Assembly (NCBI GenBank): GCA_016188625.1
Contig: JACPHL010000289.1
Coordinates: 1-6,413 of the forward strand
Length of the DNA stretch: 6,413 nucleotides
DNA from: Candidatus Rokuibacteriota bacterium
Lineage (GTDB): Bacteria; Methylomirabilota; Methylomirabilia; Rokubacteriales; JACPHL01
Reading direction: 5' to 3'
Made by a program: the position numbers and the translations under genes. Positions 2 through 6,413 of the stretch are shown here, one piece after another (within the stretch, counting starts at the first letter, position 1; the number at the start of each line of letters is the position of its first letter). The notes beneath the pieces are model-generated. The model worked only from the letters and a program-made list of their open reading frames with translations. It was not told the DNA's origin and ran no database searches.

Positions 2-88
2 GGCCTCGACGGGGCCGCGGACCCTGAGCTTGCGCCGGTCGGCGCCCCTCCGAGGAGCCAGAAGGAGGGCGAGGGTGGAGACTCCTGA
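2..88 (+). CDS. 3' end of an unidentified upstream gene (partial)
   Basis: An open frame enters from the left edge and runs 28 codons to a TGA at 86-88. Nearly all its codons end in G or C, as in the real genes of this window. The frame that would extend cofH upstream over the same bases uses poor codons (CGA, GGA, AGA, AGG). The tail is polar and low in complexity (Gly, Glu, Pro, Ala), so no family can be recognised. It would overlap the preferred cofH start by 14 nt, the kind of packing seen elsewhere in the window. Because CofH needs CofG to make FO, cofG is a natural guess for this neighbour, but nothing in the 28 residues shows it. Confidence 0.4.
   Translation, partial: GLDGAADPELAPVGAPPRSQKEGEGGDS
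62..69 (+). promoter_or_regulatory. Ribosome binding site of cofH
   Basis: AAGGAGGG lies 5 nt before the GTG at 75. It is a near-perfect Shine-Dalgarno match at good spacing. It decides the start of cofH in favour of GTG 75 over the in-frame TTG at 30, which has no such signal. Confidence 0.75.
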
Positions 89-1364
89 AGTAGCCGCGAT
101 CCTGGACCGGATCGACGCCGGGGTGCGGCGGATCCTCGCGCGGGCCCTGGAGGGGGCGGAGGTCTCCGCCGCCGAGGGGCTCGCCCTGGCCGAGGCCCGG
201 GGGCGGGAGCTCCAGGCCGCGGCCCTGGCGGCCGACGAGCTGCGCCGGCGCCAGGCCGGGGACGTGGTCACCTACGTCGTGAACCGGAACATCAACTTCA
301 CCAACGTCTGCATCAAGCACTGCACCTTCTGCGCCTTCAGCCGGGACCACCGGGAGGAGCAGGGGTACCTCCTGCCGATCGAGGAGGTCGTGCGGCGGGC
401 CCGCGAGGCCGTTGAGGTCGGCGCCACCGAGGTCTGCATCCAGGCCGGCCTCCCCCCGAAGCTGGACGGGTGGTTCTACGTCGAGCTGACCCGGGCGATC
501 AAGCGGGAGCTGCCCCGGCTCCACCTCCACGCCTTCTCCCCGGAGGAGATCCTCTACGGGGCCACGCGCGCCGGCGCCACCATCCGCGACTACCTCGCGG
601 CGCTCAAGGCCGCGGGGCTCGGAACCCTGCCGGGGACCTCCGCGGAGATCCTGGACGACGAGATCCGCGACCGCATCTCCCGGGGCCGGATCACCACCCG
701 GCAGTGGATCGAGGTGATCACCACCGCGCACGCGCTCGGGATCCGGACGACCTCCACGATCATGTACGGCCACGTCGAGCGCCCGGTCCACTGGGTGCGG
801 CACCTCGCCCTCCTCCGCGACATCCAGCGGGAGACCGGCGGCTTCACCGAGTTCGTCCCCCTCTCCTTCGTCCACCAGGAGGCCCCCATGTACCGGCGTC
901 GGCTGATCCCGGGGGTCCGCCAGGGCGCCACCGGCGCCGAGGTCGTGGCGATGCACGCCCTGGCCCGGCTGATGCTGGGGGCGACCTTCCGGAACATCCA
1001 GGCCTCCTGGGTCAAGGAGGGGCCGAAGCTCGCGCAGTATCTCCTGACCGCCGGCGCCAACGACCTCGGCGGGACCCTGATCAACGAGAGCATCTCGACC
1101 TCGGCGGGCGCCCCGTACGGGCAGCTCATGGCCCCGGCCGAGCTGCGCCGGCTGATCCGGGAGCTGGGACGGATCCCCGCCGAGCGGGGCACGACCTACG
1201 AGCTCCTCAGGGTGTACGGCGGCGAGGAGGACGCCGAGGGCCCGCTGGATCGGATCGACGACCCGGAGGCGCGCTTCGGCTCCTACCGAAAGCTCACCGC
1301 CTCGGCCGAGTTCCGCTACGCCCATCCCGCCGGCCGCCGTCCAACCACGGATCCGTCCGAGTAA
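75..1364 (+). CDS. cofH: FO synthase subunit 2, CofH (radical SAM)
   Basis: Radical SAM enzyme that joins 5-amino-6-ribitylaminouracil to the tyrosine-derived hydroxybenzyl unit. It is the first half of making FO, the deazaflavin core of F420; CofG closes the ring. It is 429 aa from GTG 75, slightly longer than typical stand-alone CofH. The 4Fe-4S motif CIKHCTFC (CX3CX2C, Cys79, Cys83, Cys86) sits after INFTNV, as in CofH. Other family blocks are HAFSPEEI (152-159), PGTSAEILDDEIR (186-198), STIMYGHVE (227-235), FVPLSFVHQEAP (260-271) and GANDLGGTLINESIS (327-341). FVPLSFVHQEAP and the STIMYGHVE context fit CofH better than its menaquinone relatives MqnC/MqnE. Start chosen for the strong Shine-Dalgarno and because the upstream gene's frame covers 2-88; an in-frame TTG at 30 would add 15 residues rich in Arg. 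CofG is not in the window. In actinobacteria the two are fused as FbiC; here CofH is free-standing. Confidence 0.93.
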   Translation: METPEVAAILDRIDAGVRRILARALEGAEVSAAEGLALAEARGRELQAAALAADELRRRQAGDVVTYVVNRNINFTNVCIKHCTFCAFSRDHREEQGYLLPIEEVVRRAREAVEVGATEVCIQAGLPPKLDGWFYVELTRAIKRELPRLHLHAFSPEEILYGATRAGATIRDYLAALKAAGLGTLPGTSAEILDDEIRDRISRGRITTRQWIEVITTAHALGIRTTSTIMYGHVERPVHWVRHLALLRDIQRETGGFTEFVPLSFVHQEAPMYRRRLIPGVRQGATGAEVVAMHALARLMLGATFRNIQASWVKEGPKLAQYLLTAGANDLGGTLINESISTSAGAPYGQLMAPAELRRLIRELGRIPAERGTTYELLRVYGGEEDAEGPLDRIDDPEARFGSYRKLTASAEFRYAHPAGRRPTTDPSE

Positions 1365-1909: not shown

Positions 1910-2446
1910 ATGCCCCGATCGGCGCGCCGGCCCGCCCCCGGCCCGGCGGCCGCCCGGTCCTCGACCCCTGAGCCCCGGACCTGGCAGGGGGTCAGCTACC
2001 GTCCCTGCCAGGCCGGGGGCGAAGAGGTGCGCGGTCTCTTCGCGTTCGCCGGGGCCTGGGCCCCGCCCCCCACCCCGCTGGAGCTGGGGTGGGAGGCCGT
2101 CCGGGGGGGGCGCCTCGTCGGCGGCGTCCTGGTCGAGCGCCAGGGAGAGCAGGGGATGCTCCACGGGCCGGTCGTGGTCGAGTCCGAGGAGCCGTTCGGG
2201 ATCGCTGAGCAGCTCATCGGCGCCCTCCTCGACCACGCCGAGCTGACCACCCTCTACGCCCGGCCCCAGGCGCTCGAGCGGCTCTGGGTCCGCTTCGGCT
2301 TCGTCCCCCTCCCGGAGGCCGGTCTCCCCGCGGCGTTCAAGGGACGGCCGGGGTCGGGGCTCTTCGTCTGGCGCCGCCCGGGGAGCTATCGGCTCGCCCC
2401 GCCCGCCCCCGAGGGGGAGGGGCGTGGCGGCCGGGGCCCCCGGTGA
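1910..2446 (+). CDS. GNAT-like N-acetyltransferase domain protein
   Basis: Predicted 178 aa. Residues 1-25 are Pro/Ala/Arg-rich and probably disordered. The rest resembles a divergent GNAT fold: strands around 61-77 (WEAVRGGRLVGGVLVERQ), a block at 83-110 (MLHGPVVVES then FGIAEQLIGALLDHA) like the acetyl-CoA-binding strand-loop-helix, and LYARPQALERLWVRFGFVPLP (115-135), which has the look of the GNAT 'ekfGF' motif. The classical Q/R-x-x-G-x-G/A pyrophosphate loop is not clear, so activity is uncertain. No substrate can be named. No strong Shine-Dalgarno precedes ATG 1910; GTG 2027 is an alternative start but would cut the first strand region. Its stop overlaps the cofD start (GTGA), tying its translation to cofD. 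It may modify a protein or metabolite, or be an unrelated passenger. Confidence 0.7.
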   Translation: MPRSARRPAPGPAAARSSTPEPRTWQGVSYRPCQAGGEEVRGLFAFAGAWAPPPTPLELGWEAVRGGRLVGGVLVERQGEQGMLHGPVVVESEEPFGIAEQLIGALLDHAELTTLYARPQALERLWVRFGFVPLPEAGLPAAFKGRPGSGLFVWRRPGSYRLAPPAPEGEGRGGRGPR

Positions 2447-3375
2447 TCGCGCTCCTGGCGGGCGGGACCGGGGCCGCCAGGTTCCTCCTGGGCCTGGCGC
2501 GGGTCGTGGACCCCCGCCGGCTCACCGTCATCGGCAACACCGGGGACGACCTCGACTGCTGGGGGCTCCACGTCTCCCCCGACCTCGACACCGTCACCTA
2601 CGCCCTGGCCGGGCTGCTCGATCCGGCCAGGGGGTGGGGGGTGCGCGAGGACACCTTCCACTGCCTCGGGGCGATGGCCCGCCTCGGCCACGAGACCTGG
2701 TTCCGGCTCGGCGACCGCGACCTGGCCACCCACCTCCACCGCACCCGGCTCCTGCGGGAGGGGCGGAGCCTCGGCGAGGCGACCGAGACCCTCCGTCGGG
2801 CCCTCGGGGTCCCGTGCCCCATCCTGCCGATGTCCAACGACCCGGTCCGGACCCGGATCCGCACGCCGGAGGGGTGGCTCGCCTTCCAGGAGTTCTTCGT
2901 CAGGGAGCGGGCCAAGGTCGAGGTCCTGGAGGTCCGCTATGAGGGCGCCGCCCGGGCCCGCCCCGGCCCGGGGGTGCTCGAGGCGCTCCGGGACGCCGAG
3001 GCGGTGATCGTCTGCCCGTCGAACCCGGTCACCTCGGTGGGACCGATCCTGGCGATCCCCGGGGTCGTCGAGGCCCTGCGGGCCACCCTCGCCCCGACCC
3101 TCGCCGTCACCCCGATCGTCGGCGGGGCGCCGGTGAGCGGGCCCGCGGGGAGGCTGATGGCCGCCCTCGGCCTGCCGGTCTCGGCGGTCGGCGTCGCGGC
3201 CTACTACCGCGACTGGCTCGACCTCCTCGTCGTGGACGAGCGGGATGCCGACCTCGTCCCCGCCGTCGAGGCCCTGGGCGTCCGGACGGCCGTCGCCGAC
3301 ACCCTGATGACGGACGGCGCGCGCGCCGCGGCCCTGGCCCGGAACGCCCTGGCCGCGCTCGGGGTGCCGGGATGA
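2443..3375 (+). CDS. cofD: FO:phospho-(enol)lactyl transferase CofD/FbiA
   Basis: Transfers the guanylyl-activated phospho-acyl unit (from the CofC reaction) onto the ribityl hydroxyl of FO, giving F420-0 or dehydro-F420-0 and releasing GMP. Cytoplasmic and Mg2+-dependent in the family. It is 310 aa, the normal length. Diagnostic blocks are GGTGAARF (7-14), GNTGDD (31-36), SPDLDT (45-50), GDRDLATH (90-97), LPMSNDPVRT (128-137), PSNPVTSVGPIL (192-203) and TPIVGGAPVSGPA (223-235). The start is GTG in GTGA overlap with the GNAT-like gene; the nearest purine-rich Shine-Dalgarno-like run (2411-2421) is too far away, so reinitiation is likely. The stop overlaps cofCE by ATGA. Whether the enzyme prefers the phospholactyl, enolpyruvyl or 3-phosphoglyceryl donor cannot be read from these motifs. 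Confidence 0.95.
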   Translation: MIALLAGGTGAARFLLGLARVVDPRRLTVIGNTGDDLDCWGLHVSPDLDTVTYALAGLLDPARGWGVREDTFHCLGAMARLGHETWFRLGDRDLATHLHRTRLLREGRSLGEATETLRRALGVPCPILPMSNDPVRTRIRTPEGWLAFQEFFVRERAKVEVLEVRYEGAARARPGPGVLEALRDAEAVIVCPSNPVTSVGPILAIPGVVEALRATLAPTLAVTPIVGGAPVSGPAGRLMAALGLPVSAVGVAAYYRDWLDLLVVDERDADLVPAVEALGVRTAVADTLMTDGARAAALARNALAALGVPG

Positions 3376-4775
3376 GGGTGGCGGTCGTCCCGGCCAAGGG
3401 GTTCGCCGAGGCCAAAGGACGCCTGGCGGGGGCGCTGACTCCCGGGGCGCGGCGGGCCCTGGCCGAGGCGATGCTCGAGGACGTCCTGGCCGCCCTTGTC
3501 CAGGCCGGGCTCGACGAGATCGTGGTCGTCACCCCGGACCCCGAGACGGCCGGGGTGGCGCGCCGCGCCGGGGTCACCCTCCTGGAGGAGCCCGAGGCCT
3601 GCGGGCACACCGCGGCGGTCGCCCTCGGGCTGGCCCACGCCCTCGGGCGCAGGGCCCGGGTGCTCCTCACCGTCCCCGGCGATCTCCCCCTCCTCACCGC
3701 GGAGGAGGTCCGCGCGATCCTCGCCGCCCTCGGCCCCGCCCCGGCCGCGGTCTTCGTGCCGTCGCGGAACGGCCTCGGGACCAACGCGGCCTGCCTCTCC
3801 CCGCCCGAGGCGGTCCCCCTCCGCTTCGGCGAGCCGAGCTTTCCCGATCACCTGGCCGCGGCCCGGGCCCGCGGGATCGAGCCGGTGGTCCTCGAGCTCC
3901 CCGGGGCCGCCCTCGACCGCGACGGGCCGGAGGATCTGGCGCTCCTGCTCGACTCCCCCGGCGTCTCGCGCACCCTGGCCCGGCTCCGGGCCCTGGGGGT
4001 CCGGCTCCCCGCCTCCGCAGCGAGGCCGCCCCGCCTGGAGGTGATCGGCGTGGCGGGCCTCCCCGAGGTCCGGCCCGGCGACGACCTCAGCCGGCTCATC
4101 GTCGAGGCGGCGCGGGACCAGGGGACGCCGCTCCAGGCGCGCGACATCCTGGTGGTGAGCCAGAAGGTCGTCTCCAAGGCCGAGGGGCGCCTGGTCCGCC
4201 TGGAGGAGGTCGTCCCCTCCCCCGTCGCCGAGGAGCTCGCCCGGGGGCTCAAGCGCGATCCCCGGCTCGTCGAGGTGATCCTCCGGGAGTCCCGCCGGAT
4301 CGTCCGCATGGACAAGGGGATCCTGATCACGGAGACCCACCACGGCTGGATCTGCGCCAACGCGGGGGTGGACCAGTCGAACCTCGAGGCGGGCGTGGTG
4401 AGCTGCCTCCCCCTCGACCCGGACGGTTCGGCCCGCCGGCTCGTGGAGCGGGTCCACCGGCTCACCGGGCTCGGGGTGGCCGCGATCGTCGCCGACACCT
4501 TCGGCCGGCCGTGGCGCGAGGGGCTGACCAACGTGGCGATCGGGGTGGCGGGCCTGGCCCCGCTCCGGAGCTATCTCGGGATGACCGACCCCGCCGGCTA
4601 CACCCTCCAGGCCACGCTCCTGGCCGCGGCGGACGAGCTGGCCGGGGCGGCCGAGCTGGTGATGGGGAAGGTCGAGCGCGTCCCGGTGGCCGTGGTGCGC
4701 GGCTACCCCTGGGAGCCCTCCGAGGCCCCGGCCCAGCTCCTGATCCGCCCCCCGGAGCGCGATCTCTTCCGCTGA
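3372..4775 (+). CDS. cofCE: CofC-CofE fusion: phospho-acid guanylyltransferase / F420-0:gamma-glutamyl ligase
   Basis: One uninterrupted 467-aa protein joins two F420 enzymes. Residues 1 to about 200 are CofC/FbiD: VPAKGFAEAKGRL (6-18), GDLPLL (103-108), SRNGLGTNAACLSPP (131-145), FGEPSF (152-157) and LDRDGPEDL (181-189). This domain uses GTP to activate 2-phospholactate, phosphoenolpyruvate or 3-phosphoglycerate. Residues 222 to about 450 are CofE: GDDLSRLI (236-243), VVSQKVVSKAEGRL (261-274), RDPRLVEVILRES (295-307), HGWICANAGVDQSN (324-337), DPDGSA (349-354), DTFGRPWREG (375-384) and ADELAGAAEL (420-429). It adds one or more glutamates to F420-0 with GTP. The linker (about 200-221) is Pro/Ala/Arg-rich. 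There is no FbiB-type nitroreductase domain after CofE. ATGA overlap with cofD and no Shine-Dalgarno point to coupled translation. Domain identities are firm; activity of both halves is inferred. Confidence 0.94.
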   Translation: MRVAVVPAKGFAEAKGRLAGALTPGARRALAEAMLEDVLAALVQAGLDEIVVVTPDPETAGVARRAGVTLLEEPEACGHTAAVALGLAHALGRRARVLLTVPGDLPLLTAEEVRAILAALGPAPAAVFVPSRNGLGTNAACLSPPEAVPLRFGEPSFPDHLAAARARGIEPVVLELPGAALDRDGPEDLALLLDSPGVSRTLARLRALGVRLPASAARPPRLEVIGVAGLPEVRPGDDLSRLIVEAARDQGTPLQARDILVVSQKVVSKAEGRLVRLEEVVPSPVAEELARGLKRDPRLVEVILRESRRIVRMDKGILITETHHGWICANAGVDQSNLEAGVVSCLPLDPDGSARRLVERVHRLTGLGVAAIVADTFGRPWREGLTNVAIGVAGLAPLRSYLGMTDPAGYTLQATLLAAADELAGAAELVMGKVERVPVAVVRGYPWEPSEAPAQLLIRPPERDLFR

Positions 4776-4787
4776 GCCTCCACGGCC

Positions 4788-5453
4788 ATGGATGTGGCGA
4801 TCCTCGGGGGGACGGGAAAGGAGGGAAGCGGCCTGGCGCTCCGCTGGGCGCGGGCCGGCCATCGCATCCTCATCGGCTCCCGCGACCGCGAGCGCGCCCG
4901 GACCCGGGCCCGGGAGCTGGCCGCCCACCTGGACGGCGCCGCCATCGCGGGGCTCACCAACGAGGAGGCGGCCCGCGCAGGCGAGGTCGTGGTGGTCGCG
5001 GTCCCGCACGCCGGCCACCGGGCCCTCCTCGAGGGCCTGCGCGACCCCCTGCGGGGGAAGGTCGTGCTGGACACCGTGGTGCCGCTCGACTTCGGCGCCC
5101 CCCGCCTCTACGCCCCGCCCCCGGAGGGGTCGGCCGCCGAGGAGGCCCAGGCCGTGCTGGGGCCGGAGGCCCGGGTGGTTGCGGCCCTCCACCAGATCGC
5201 GGCCCACGAGCTAAAGGCCCTGGACCACCCGCTGGACGCCGACGCCCCGCTCTGCGGCGACGACCCGGAGGCCAAGCGGGTCGCCGCCGGGCTGATCGAG
5301 AGCCTCGGGGTGCGGGCCCTGGACGCGGGGCCGCTCGCCATGGCCTCGGTCCTCGAGGGGCTGACGGCCCTGCTAGTCCGGCTGAACCGCCGCTACAAGG
5401 TCAAAGGGGCCGGGCTCAGGATCACCGGCCTCGAGGCAGGCTCCGGGCGATGA
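4788..5453 (+). CDS. npdG: NADPH-dependent F420 reductase (NpdG/Fno)
   Basis: Transfers hydride between NADP(H) and F420, supplying reduced F420 or recovering NADPH. At 221 aa it has family length. The N-terminal Rossmann fold has GGTGKEG (7-13) and Ser31-Arg32 after the second strand, the residues that hold the NADP 2'-phosphate in this family. Further blocks are VVVAVPH (68-74), AALHQI (132-137), CGDD (156-159), LDAGPL (178-183) and a C-terminal NRRYKVKGAGLRITGL (200-215) typical of the bacterial NpdG type. It starts 12 nt after the cofCE stop without a clear Shine-Dalgarno. Its stop overlaps the next gene by ATGA. Its place directly after the biosynthesis genes links cofactor supply with its reduction. 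Confidence 0.93.
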   Translation: MDVAILGGTGKEGSGLALRWARAGHRILIGSRDRERARTRARELAAHLDGAAIAGLTNEEAARAGEVVVVAVPHAGHRALLEGLRDPLRGKVVLDTVVPLDFGAPRLYAPPPEGSAAEEAQAVLGPEARVVAALHQIAAHELKALDHPLDADAPLCGDDPEAKRVAAGLIESLGVRALDAGPLAMASVLEGLTALLVRLNRRYKVKGAGLRITGLEAGSGR

Positions 5454-6413
5454 CCGACGCCCCGGTCATGGTCGGCCCCGAGGCGCTCCGGGGCTTCATC
5501 GTCGCCGTCTTCGACCGCCTCGGGTTGCCCCCGGGGATCGCCGAGCTGACCGCCGACCTCATGGTCCGAACCGACCTCCGGGGGGTGGACTCCCACGGGG
5601 TCGGGATGCTCCCCAAGTACGTGGAGTGGATCCGGGCGGGGTACATCGTCCCCGCGGCCGAGCCCAAGGTGGTCCGGGACGAGGGGCCCACGGCGCTGGT
5701 GGACGGCCAGCAGGCGATGGGGCACTACACCGCCACCGGGGCCATGGAGCTGGCGATCGCCAAGGCGCGGGTCCACGGGGTGGGGTTCGTGGCCGTGCGG
5801 AACTCGAACCACTTCGGGGCCTGCGCCTCGTACTCCATGAAGGCGCTCGCCCACGACATGATCGGCCTGGCCCTGACCAACTCCCCCTTCCCCGCCATGG
5901 CCCCCACCTTCGGCCGGAAGGCCATGCTCGCGACCAACCCCCTCTCCCTCGCCGCCCCGGCGGGGCAGGAGCCGCCCTTCGTCCTCGACATGGCGACCAC
6001 CACCGTGGCGATCGGGCAGCTCCACCAGGCCAGCCGCTGGGGGCGGCCGATCCCGGAGGGGTGGGCCCTGGACCCCTCGGGCCGCCCCACCACCGACCCC
6101 GCGGTCGCCCTCGCGAGCCGGCTTCTCACCCCCCTGGGCGGCAGCCGCGAGCTGGGCGGGCACAAGGGGTACGGCCTCGGCCTCCTGGTGGATATCCTCT
6201 CGGGGGTCCTCTCAGGCGCGGTCCACGGCGACCTCTTCTTCCGGAGCGAGCCCCAGGGCCGCCGGACGAACGTCGGGCACTTCTTCGGGGCGCTCGAGAT
6301 CGCCCGCTCCCGCCCCGGCGAGGAGTTCAAGGCGGCGATGGACGATCTCCTCGGCGCCCTCAAGGCCGCGGCGAAGGCCGAAGGCCAGGAGCGGATCTAC
6401 GTGGCGGGGGAGC
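5450..6413 (+). CDS. Ldh2-family malate/L-lactate-type dehydrogenase (3' truncated by window)
   Basis: NAD(P)-dependent 2-hydroxyacid (or ureidoglycolate, sulfolactate, diketogulonate) dehydrogenase of the Ldh2/YiaK/AllD/ComC family, unrelated to classical LDH/MDH. 321 codons are present with no stop; family members are usually about 335-360 aa, so only the C-terminal end is missing. Motifs: DLRGVDSHGV (42-51, His49), SNHFG (119-123, His121), NPLSLAAPA (163-171), VLDMATT (178-184), IPEGWALD (201-208), GHKGYGL (237-243) and GHFFGAL (276-282). The two histidines match family active-site positions. The substrate cannot be decided. The start is ATGA overlap with npdG, with a second ATG at codon 7. 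Strict coupling to an F420 gene suggests a shared pathway, but this family is common in soil bacteria and may be a passenger. Confidence 0.9.
   Translation, partial: MTDAPVMVGPEALRGFIVAVFDRLGLPPGIAELTADLMVRTDLRGVDSHGVGMLPKYVEWIRAGYIVPAAEPKVVRDEGPTALVDGQQAMGHYTATGAMELAIAKARVHGVGFVAVRNSNHFGACASYSMKALAHDMIGLALTNSPFPAMAPTFGRKAMLATNPLSLAAPAGQEPPFVLDMATTTVAIGQLHQASRWGRPIPEGWALDPSGRPTTDPAVALASRLLTPLGGSRELGGHKGYGLGLLVDILSGVLSGAVHGDLFFRSEPQGRRTNVGHFFGALEIARSRPGEEFKAAMDDLLGALKAAAKAEGQERIYVAGE

Follow-up and report, generated by a model that had tools for sequence, protein, structure and literature searches.

Are CofC and CofE, two enzymes of F420 biosynthesis, joined in a single polypeptide in a Candidatus Rokuibacteriota bacterium and, if so, what would the joined protein do? 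The question is raised by a DNA window (the whole stretch analysed, 6,413 nucleotides) that is one entire contig of a fragmented, 84% complete metagenome-assembled genome (MAG). An earlier note on this DNA had described a full CofC, a short Pro/Ala-rich linker and a full CofE in one frame, in a protein without the nitroreductase of FbiB. The features concerned are listed below, with the source of each assignment in brackets.

3..1364, + strand: cofH (FO synthase subunit), start at or before the window edge (NCBIfam)
2443..3375, + strand: cofD (2-phospho-L-lactate transferase) (NCBIfam)
3372..4775, + strand: cofCE, predicted fused CofC (2-phospholactate/PEP guanylyltransferase) and CofE (F420-0:gamma-glutamyl ligase), 467 aa (frame, Pfam, NCBIfam, AlphaFold2, Foldseek)
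3372..3995, + strand: CofC domain, aa 1-208, with Asp104/Asp182/Asp184, Lys9, Lys15, Gly153 and Ser156 (NCBIfam, alignment)
3996..4034, + strand: linker, Pro/Ala-rich, about 12 residues (aa 209-221), low model confidence
4035..4772, + strand: CofE domain, aa 222-467 (NCBIfam, alignment, Foldseek)
4788..5453, + strand: npdG (NADPH-dependent F420 reductase) (NCBIfam)

The cofCE gene and its surroundings

The window carries, in order, cofH, an HU-like gene, a gene whose GNAT match is below threshold, cofD, cofCE, npdG and an Ldh_2 dehydrogenase gene. The start codon of cofCE overlaps the cofD stop codon in the sequence ATGA at 3372-3375. Since cofG is located elsewhere in the genome (contig C40), on a different contig from cofH, the FO synthase here is of the two-gene type. 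The interval between cofH and cofD (1617-2446) is taken up by the HU/IHF-like DNA-binding protein gene and the GNAT-like gene. The Ldh_2 gene, of the malate/L-lactate dehydrogenase family (5450-6413), overlaps the npdG stop codon, again through ATGA, and apparently belongs to the same operon; it is speculation that its product supplies lactate for 2-phospholactate.

The 467 codons of cofCE form a single open frame with no internal stop. Within the protein, the CofC equivalog TIGR03552 matches aa 4-193 (140.6 bits; cutoff, 105) and the CofE equivalog TIGR01916 matches aa 222-467 (273.4 bits; cutoff, 180.65); the E-values of the two NCBIfam domain matches, 1.5e-81 and 4.7e-41, rule out a chance match. 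Pfam places CofC at aa 4-213 and F420_ligase at aa 230-444, and the CofE half is collinear from end to end with Archaeoglobus fulgidus CofE (about 39% identical). In the AlphaFold2 model (mean pLDDT 91) both domains are well folded, and the confidence dips to 57 around aa 211-220. Despite the high pLDDT, the pTM is 0.61, and a firm orientation of CofC relative to CofE is absent from the model. As modelled, then, cofCE is two confidently predicted domains on a loose hinge. Foldseek searches with this model return the CofE structures 2phn/7uld at the top, with a target-normalised TM of 0.81 that identifies the CofE fold, and also the CofC structures 7p97/2i5e/6bwg. By both Pfam and NCBIfam, CofE is the last domain, and no nitroreductase follows it. 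Thus, the architecture read in the earlier note, here in a gene next to cofD, holds up: each half exceeds its curated cutoff, each is folded, and the protein ends with CofE.

Where the CofE domain begins, a Shine-Dalgarno-like sequence, GGAGGTGAT (4037-4045), lies upstream of a GTG codon (4050) in the cofCE frame. Internal initiation there would yield CofE from residue 227. Some such initiation may occur, but the product is unlikely to matter because it would be missing the beta-strand with which CofE begins, placed by the model at aa 223-226.

A genuine fusion found in several phyla

A scan of Methylomirabilota gave matches in 70 of 95 genomes. In-frame fusions are present in this genome (G000, family f1), in G003 (f4, another family within the order) and in G059, G060 and G062 (f5); the sequence of the NC10 MAG RIFCSPLOWO2_12_FULL_66_18 (L012) is identical to G059 and was counted once. 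The G003 protein is 71% identical and has another linker; its gene is cut by the contig end inside CofE, and the remainder is apparently on a separate contig. In most Rokubacteria-like genomes cofC and cofE are separate and adjacent, often overlapping. Family f2, for example, has two adjoining genes that often overlap or lie a few bases apart, some of them sharing a frame that a single stop codon interrupts. Loci of this same-frame type, with TGA or TAG between the genes, include L003 (TGA), L004 (TAG), L006, L109, L126, L127 and L128. Few changes, or stop codon readthrough, would yield a fusion at such loci. In another Rokubacteria MAG (L036, about 8100-9265), the CofE match begins only at domain position 49 and overlaps cofC in another frame, which suggests a frameshift or truncation of cofE.

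Beyond the phylum, genomes were searched with a profile built from the fused proteins at a strict cut-off (1e-130), which will miss divergent cases; the phylum of each scanned genome set was taken from the set's centre locus. Four Chloroflexota genomes (400 searched) and four Actinomycetota genomes (346 searched) have in-frame fusions; a separate scan added one more in Chloroflexota (L049). One of the Actinomycetota fusions sits on a 4.16-Mb contig, a length that makes a product of fragmentary assembly unlikely. This locus (L130, G728 contig C1), from a near-complete genome of Rubrobacter's phylum, has the cofD-cofCE arrangement, and its host is possibly cultured. Full-length matches in 3 of 297 Acidobacteriota genomes each contain an in-frame TGA and thus represent separate genes. 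A survey that covered 200 archaeal genomes lacked a positive control, so its outcome carries no weight as evidence of absence. The fusion therefore recurs across at least three phyla and is not peculiar to this genome.

The loci collected comprise 16 fused, 12 with both genes in one frame but a stop codon between them, and 40 adjacent in another frame, counts that include several duplicates of one genome. Of the fused loci, 15 have cofD directly upstream, always as a separate gene that is not itself fused; the 16th is truncated at the end of its contig. A 778-aa open frame in L125 that resembled a CofD-CofC-CofE triple fusion was rejected, since its cofD is in another frame. The linker between the domain matches ranges from 11 to 51 residues, differing in both length and sequence between lineages.

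That two genes were fused here by an assembly or sequencing error is barely credible: the MAG is fragmented, the window makes up one entire contig of it, and most genomes of the order have separate genes, but independent fused homologues exist, including G003 with its divergent linker and the 4.16-Mb contig case. The earlier note had named as grounds for doubt a frameshift or assembly join near the junction, and close relatives that all encode the two as separate genes. Neither is found: G003, the nearest in the tree, is fused in frame, and other loci are fused too, even if separate genes prevail in the order (f2, and G002 of f3).

Origin of the fusion

A tree of the two domains, concatenated, pairs G000 with G003 as sisters (bootstrap/SH-aLRT 100/98) and places 25 separate-gene rows of f2 beside them (100/97). 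When added, G002, which has separate genes, falls outside both groups (SH-aLRT 94); because of this placement, the fusion would most simply have arisen on the branch to G000 and G003. The f5 fusion groups elsewhere, beside separate-gene loci of the Methylomirabilis type. Mapping the fused pairs in this way, as the earlier note had proposed, requires six changes between the fused and separate states. A single origin of all fused rows is rejected by the AU test (p = 0.0003), as is a tree in which the Methylomirabilota fusion groups are held together (p-AU 2.7e-7); the clades for these tests were defined with the fusion already known, though not picked from the tree. Since six changes are needed and a single origin fails, the fusion is recurrent and, on this tree, appears to have arisen repeatedly in unrelated bacteria. 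Not every branch allows gain to be distinguished from loss, and some Chloroflexota branches are long.

Predicted substrate of the CofC half

When the protein is aligned with CofC of known structure and residue roles are taken from PMC8764529 and PMC6450877, the three Mg-binding Asp residues and the carboxylate-binding Ser prove to be kept: D104, D182, D184 and S156 correspond to FbiD D116, D188, D190 and S166. Both CofC lysines (K9 and K15) are also kept. The position diagnostic for 3-PG use (S162 of M. rhizoxinica CofC) is occupied by Gly153 rather than by Ser or Thr. This residue argues against a 3-PG-type CofC, a reading prompted by the best PDB match, 7p97. Because Gly, not Ser, is present at the marker position, 2-phospho-L-lactate (2-PL) or phosphoenolpyruvate (PEP) is the expected substrate. 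Assays cannot separate 2-PL from PEP use in vivo (PMC8764529).

A PF00881 search of this 84%-complete genome found no FbiE-like separate nitroreductase; the sole matches are the two halves of a SagB-type protein. This tandem peptide dehydrogenase (L132, contig C290, 1-2118) has two nitroreductase-fold halves in one frame, and comparable tandem pairs are present in relatives. Other nitroreductases occur in the relatives' genomes. If absence from a draft genome is taken at face value, PEP as the substrate would leave the reduction of dehydro-F420 to be explained, and 2-PL would make a reductase unnecessary.

Proposed function

We infer both enzyme activities of cofCE from the equivalog matches, conserved residues, folds, F420 operon, presence of cofG in the genome and repeated fusions. 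The protein is very probably a bifunctional guanylyltransferase/gamma-glutamyl ligase that works with a separate CofD and without an FbiB nitroreductase domain, most likely through two independent active sites on one chain. The N-terminal CofC domain would use GTP to convert 2-PL or PEP to an unstable guanylyl-diphospho intermediate, which CofD, encoded by the overlapping upstream gene, would pass to FO to give (dehydro)F420-0. After the CofD step, the C-terminal CofE domain would add gamma-linked glutamates, again with GTP. Such a protein would fix a 1:1 stoichiometry and co-localise the steps before and after CofD. It probably originated, repeatedly, when adjoining and often overlapping cofC and cofE genes were joined within a cofD-cofC-cofE operon. 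Because most relatives get by with two genes, the fusion may confer no advantage.

Compatible with this bifunctional reading, and about as probable as its opposite, is a neutral fusion, in which genes lying end to end in an operon were joined with co-expression as the only consequence. The 12 same-frame loci with a stop codon, the 40 loci adjacent in another frame and the unconserved linkers fit this idea; the six changes and the retention of the fusion within clades argue instead that joining is at least tolerated well, and perhaps even favoured.

Substrate channelling by physical coupling to CofD would be an addition to the bifunctional reading, and a rather doubtful one. The earlier note had suggested a CofCE-CofD complex that channels the CofC product. 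In this reading CofCE, a dimer through its CofE half, would dock on CofD, and both the unstable CofC product and, later, F420-0 would move between active sites without release. CofC activity requires CofD and the CofC product is unstable (PMC8498797), and CofC holds its own product tightly (PMC8498797, PMC8764529); in addition, the fusion recurs, and cofD is adjacent wherever it is visible in fused loci. However, the inter-domain orientation is not firm in the model, the linkers are unlike between lineages, and FbiC is reported to rely on diffusion between its two domains (PMC8498797). Still less probable is the broadest proposal, that a repeatedly evolved fusion assembles with CofD into a metabolon through which the labile guanylyl intermediate and F420-0 are channelled. 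Its bacterial hosts would also lack an FbiB-type reductase and would therefore either use 2-phospholactate or reduce dehydro-F420 by another route.

Comparison with known F420 biosynthesis proteins

Searches of the open-access literature found no description of a CofC-CofE fusion; protein databases may well contain the pair. So far as that literature shows, the arrangement is new; both halves look like ordinary known enzymes. With CofC/FbiD (PDB 2i5e, 6bwg, 7p97) cofCE shares the full domain, Asp triad, substrate-binding Ser and fold, but it bears CofE at its C-terminus. At the diagnostic position it shares Gly with FbiD, whereas the 3-PG enzyme 7p97, although its best sequence match, has Ser. 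The full CofE domain is shared with A. fulgidus CofE (PDB 2phn, 7uld), from which cofCE differs by its N-terminal CofC. FbiB (CofE plus nitroreductase) likewise has CofE in a two-domain F420 biosynthesis protein. However, the partner in cofCE is an N-terminal CofC rather than a C-terminal nitroreductase, and the FbiB model NF009810 matches below its cutoff and only across its CofE part. FbiC (CofG plus CofH) also fuses two steps of the pathway, but the enzymes are others, and here cofG and cofH are two frames that lie on different contigs. The cofCE protein is a third two-enzyme fusion of F420 biosynthesis, beside FbiC and FbiB. Its recurrence is natural evidence that the steps flanking CofD benefit from, or at least tolerate, physical joining. 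A single cofCE gene could be handy for heterologous F420 production, and the protein is a possible test object for the cooperation of CofC, CofD and CofE.
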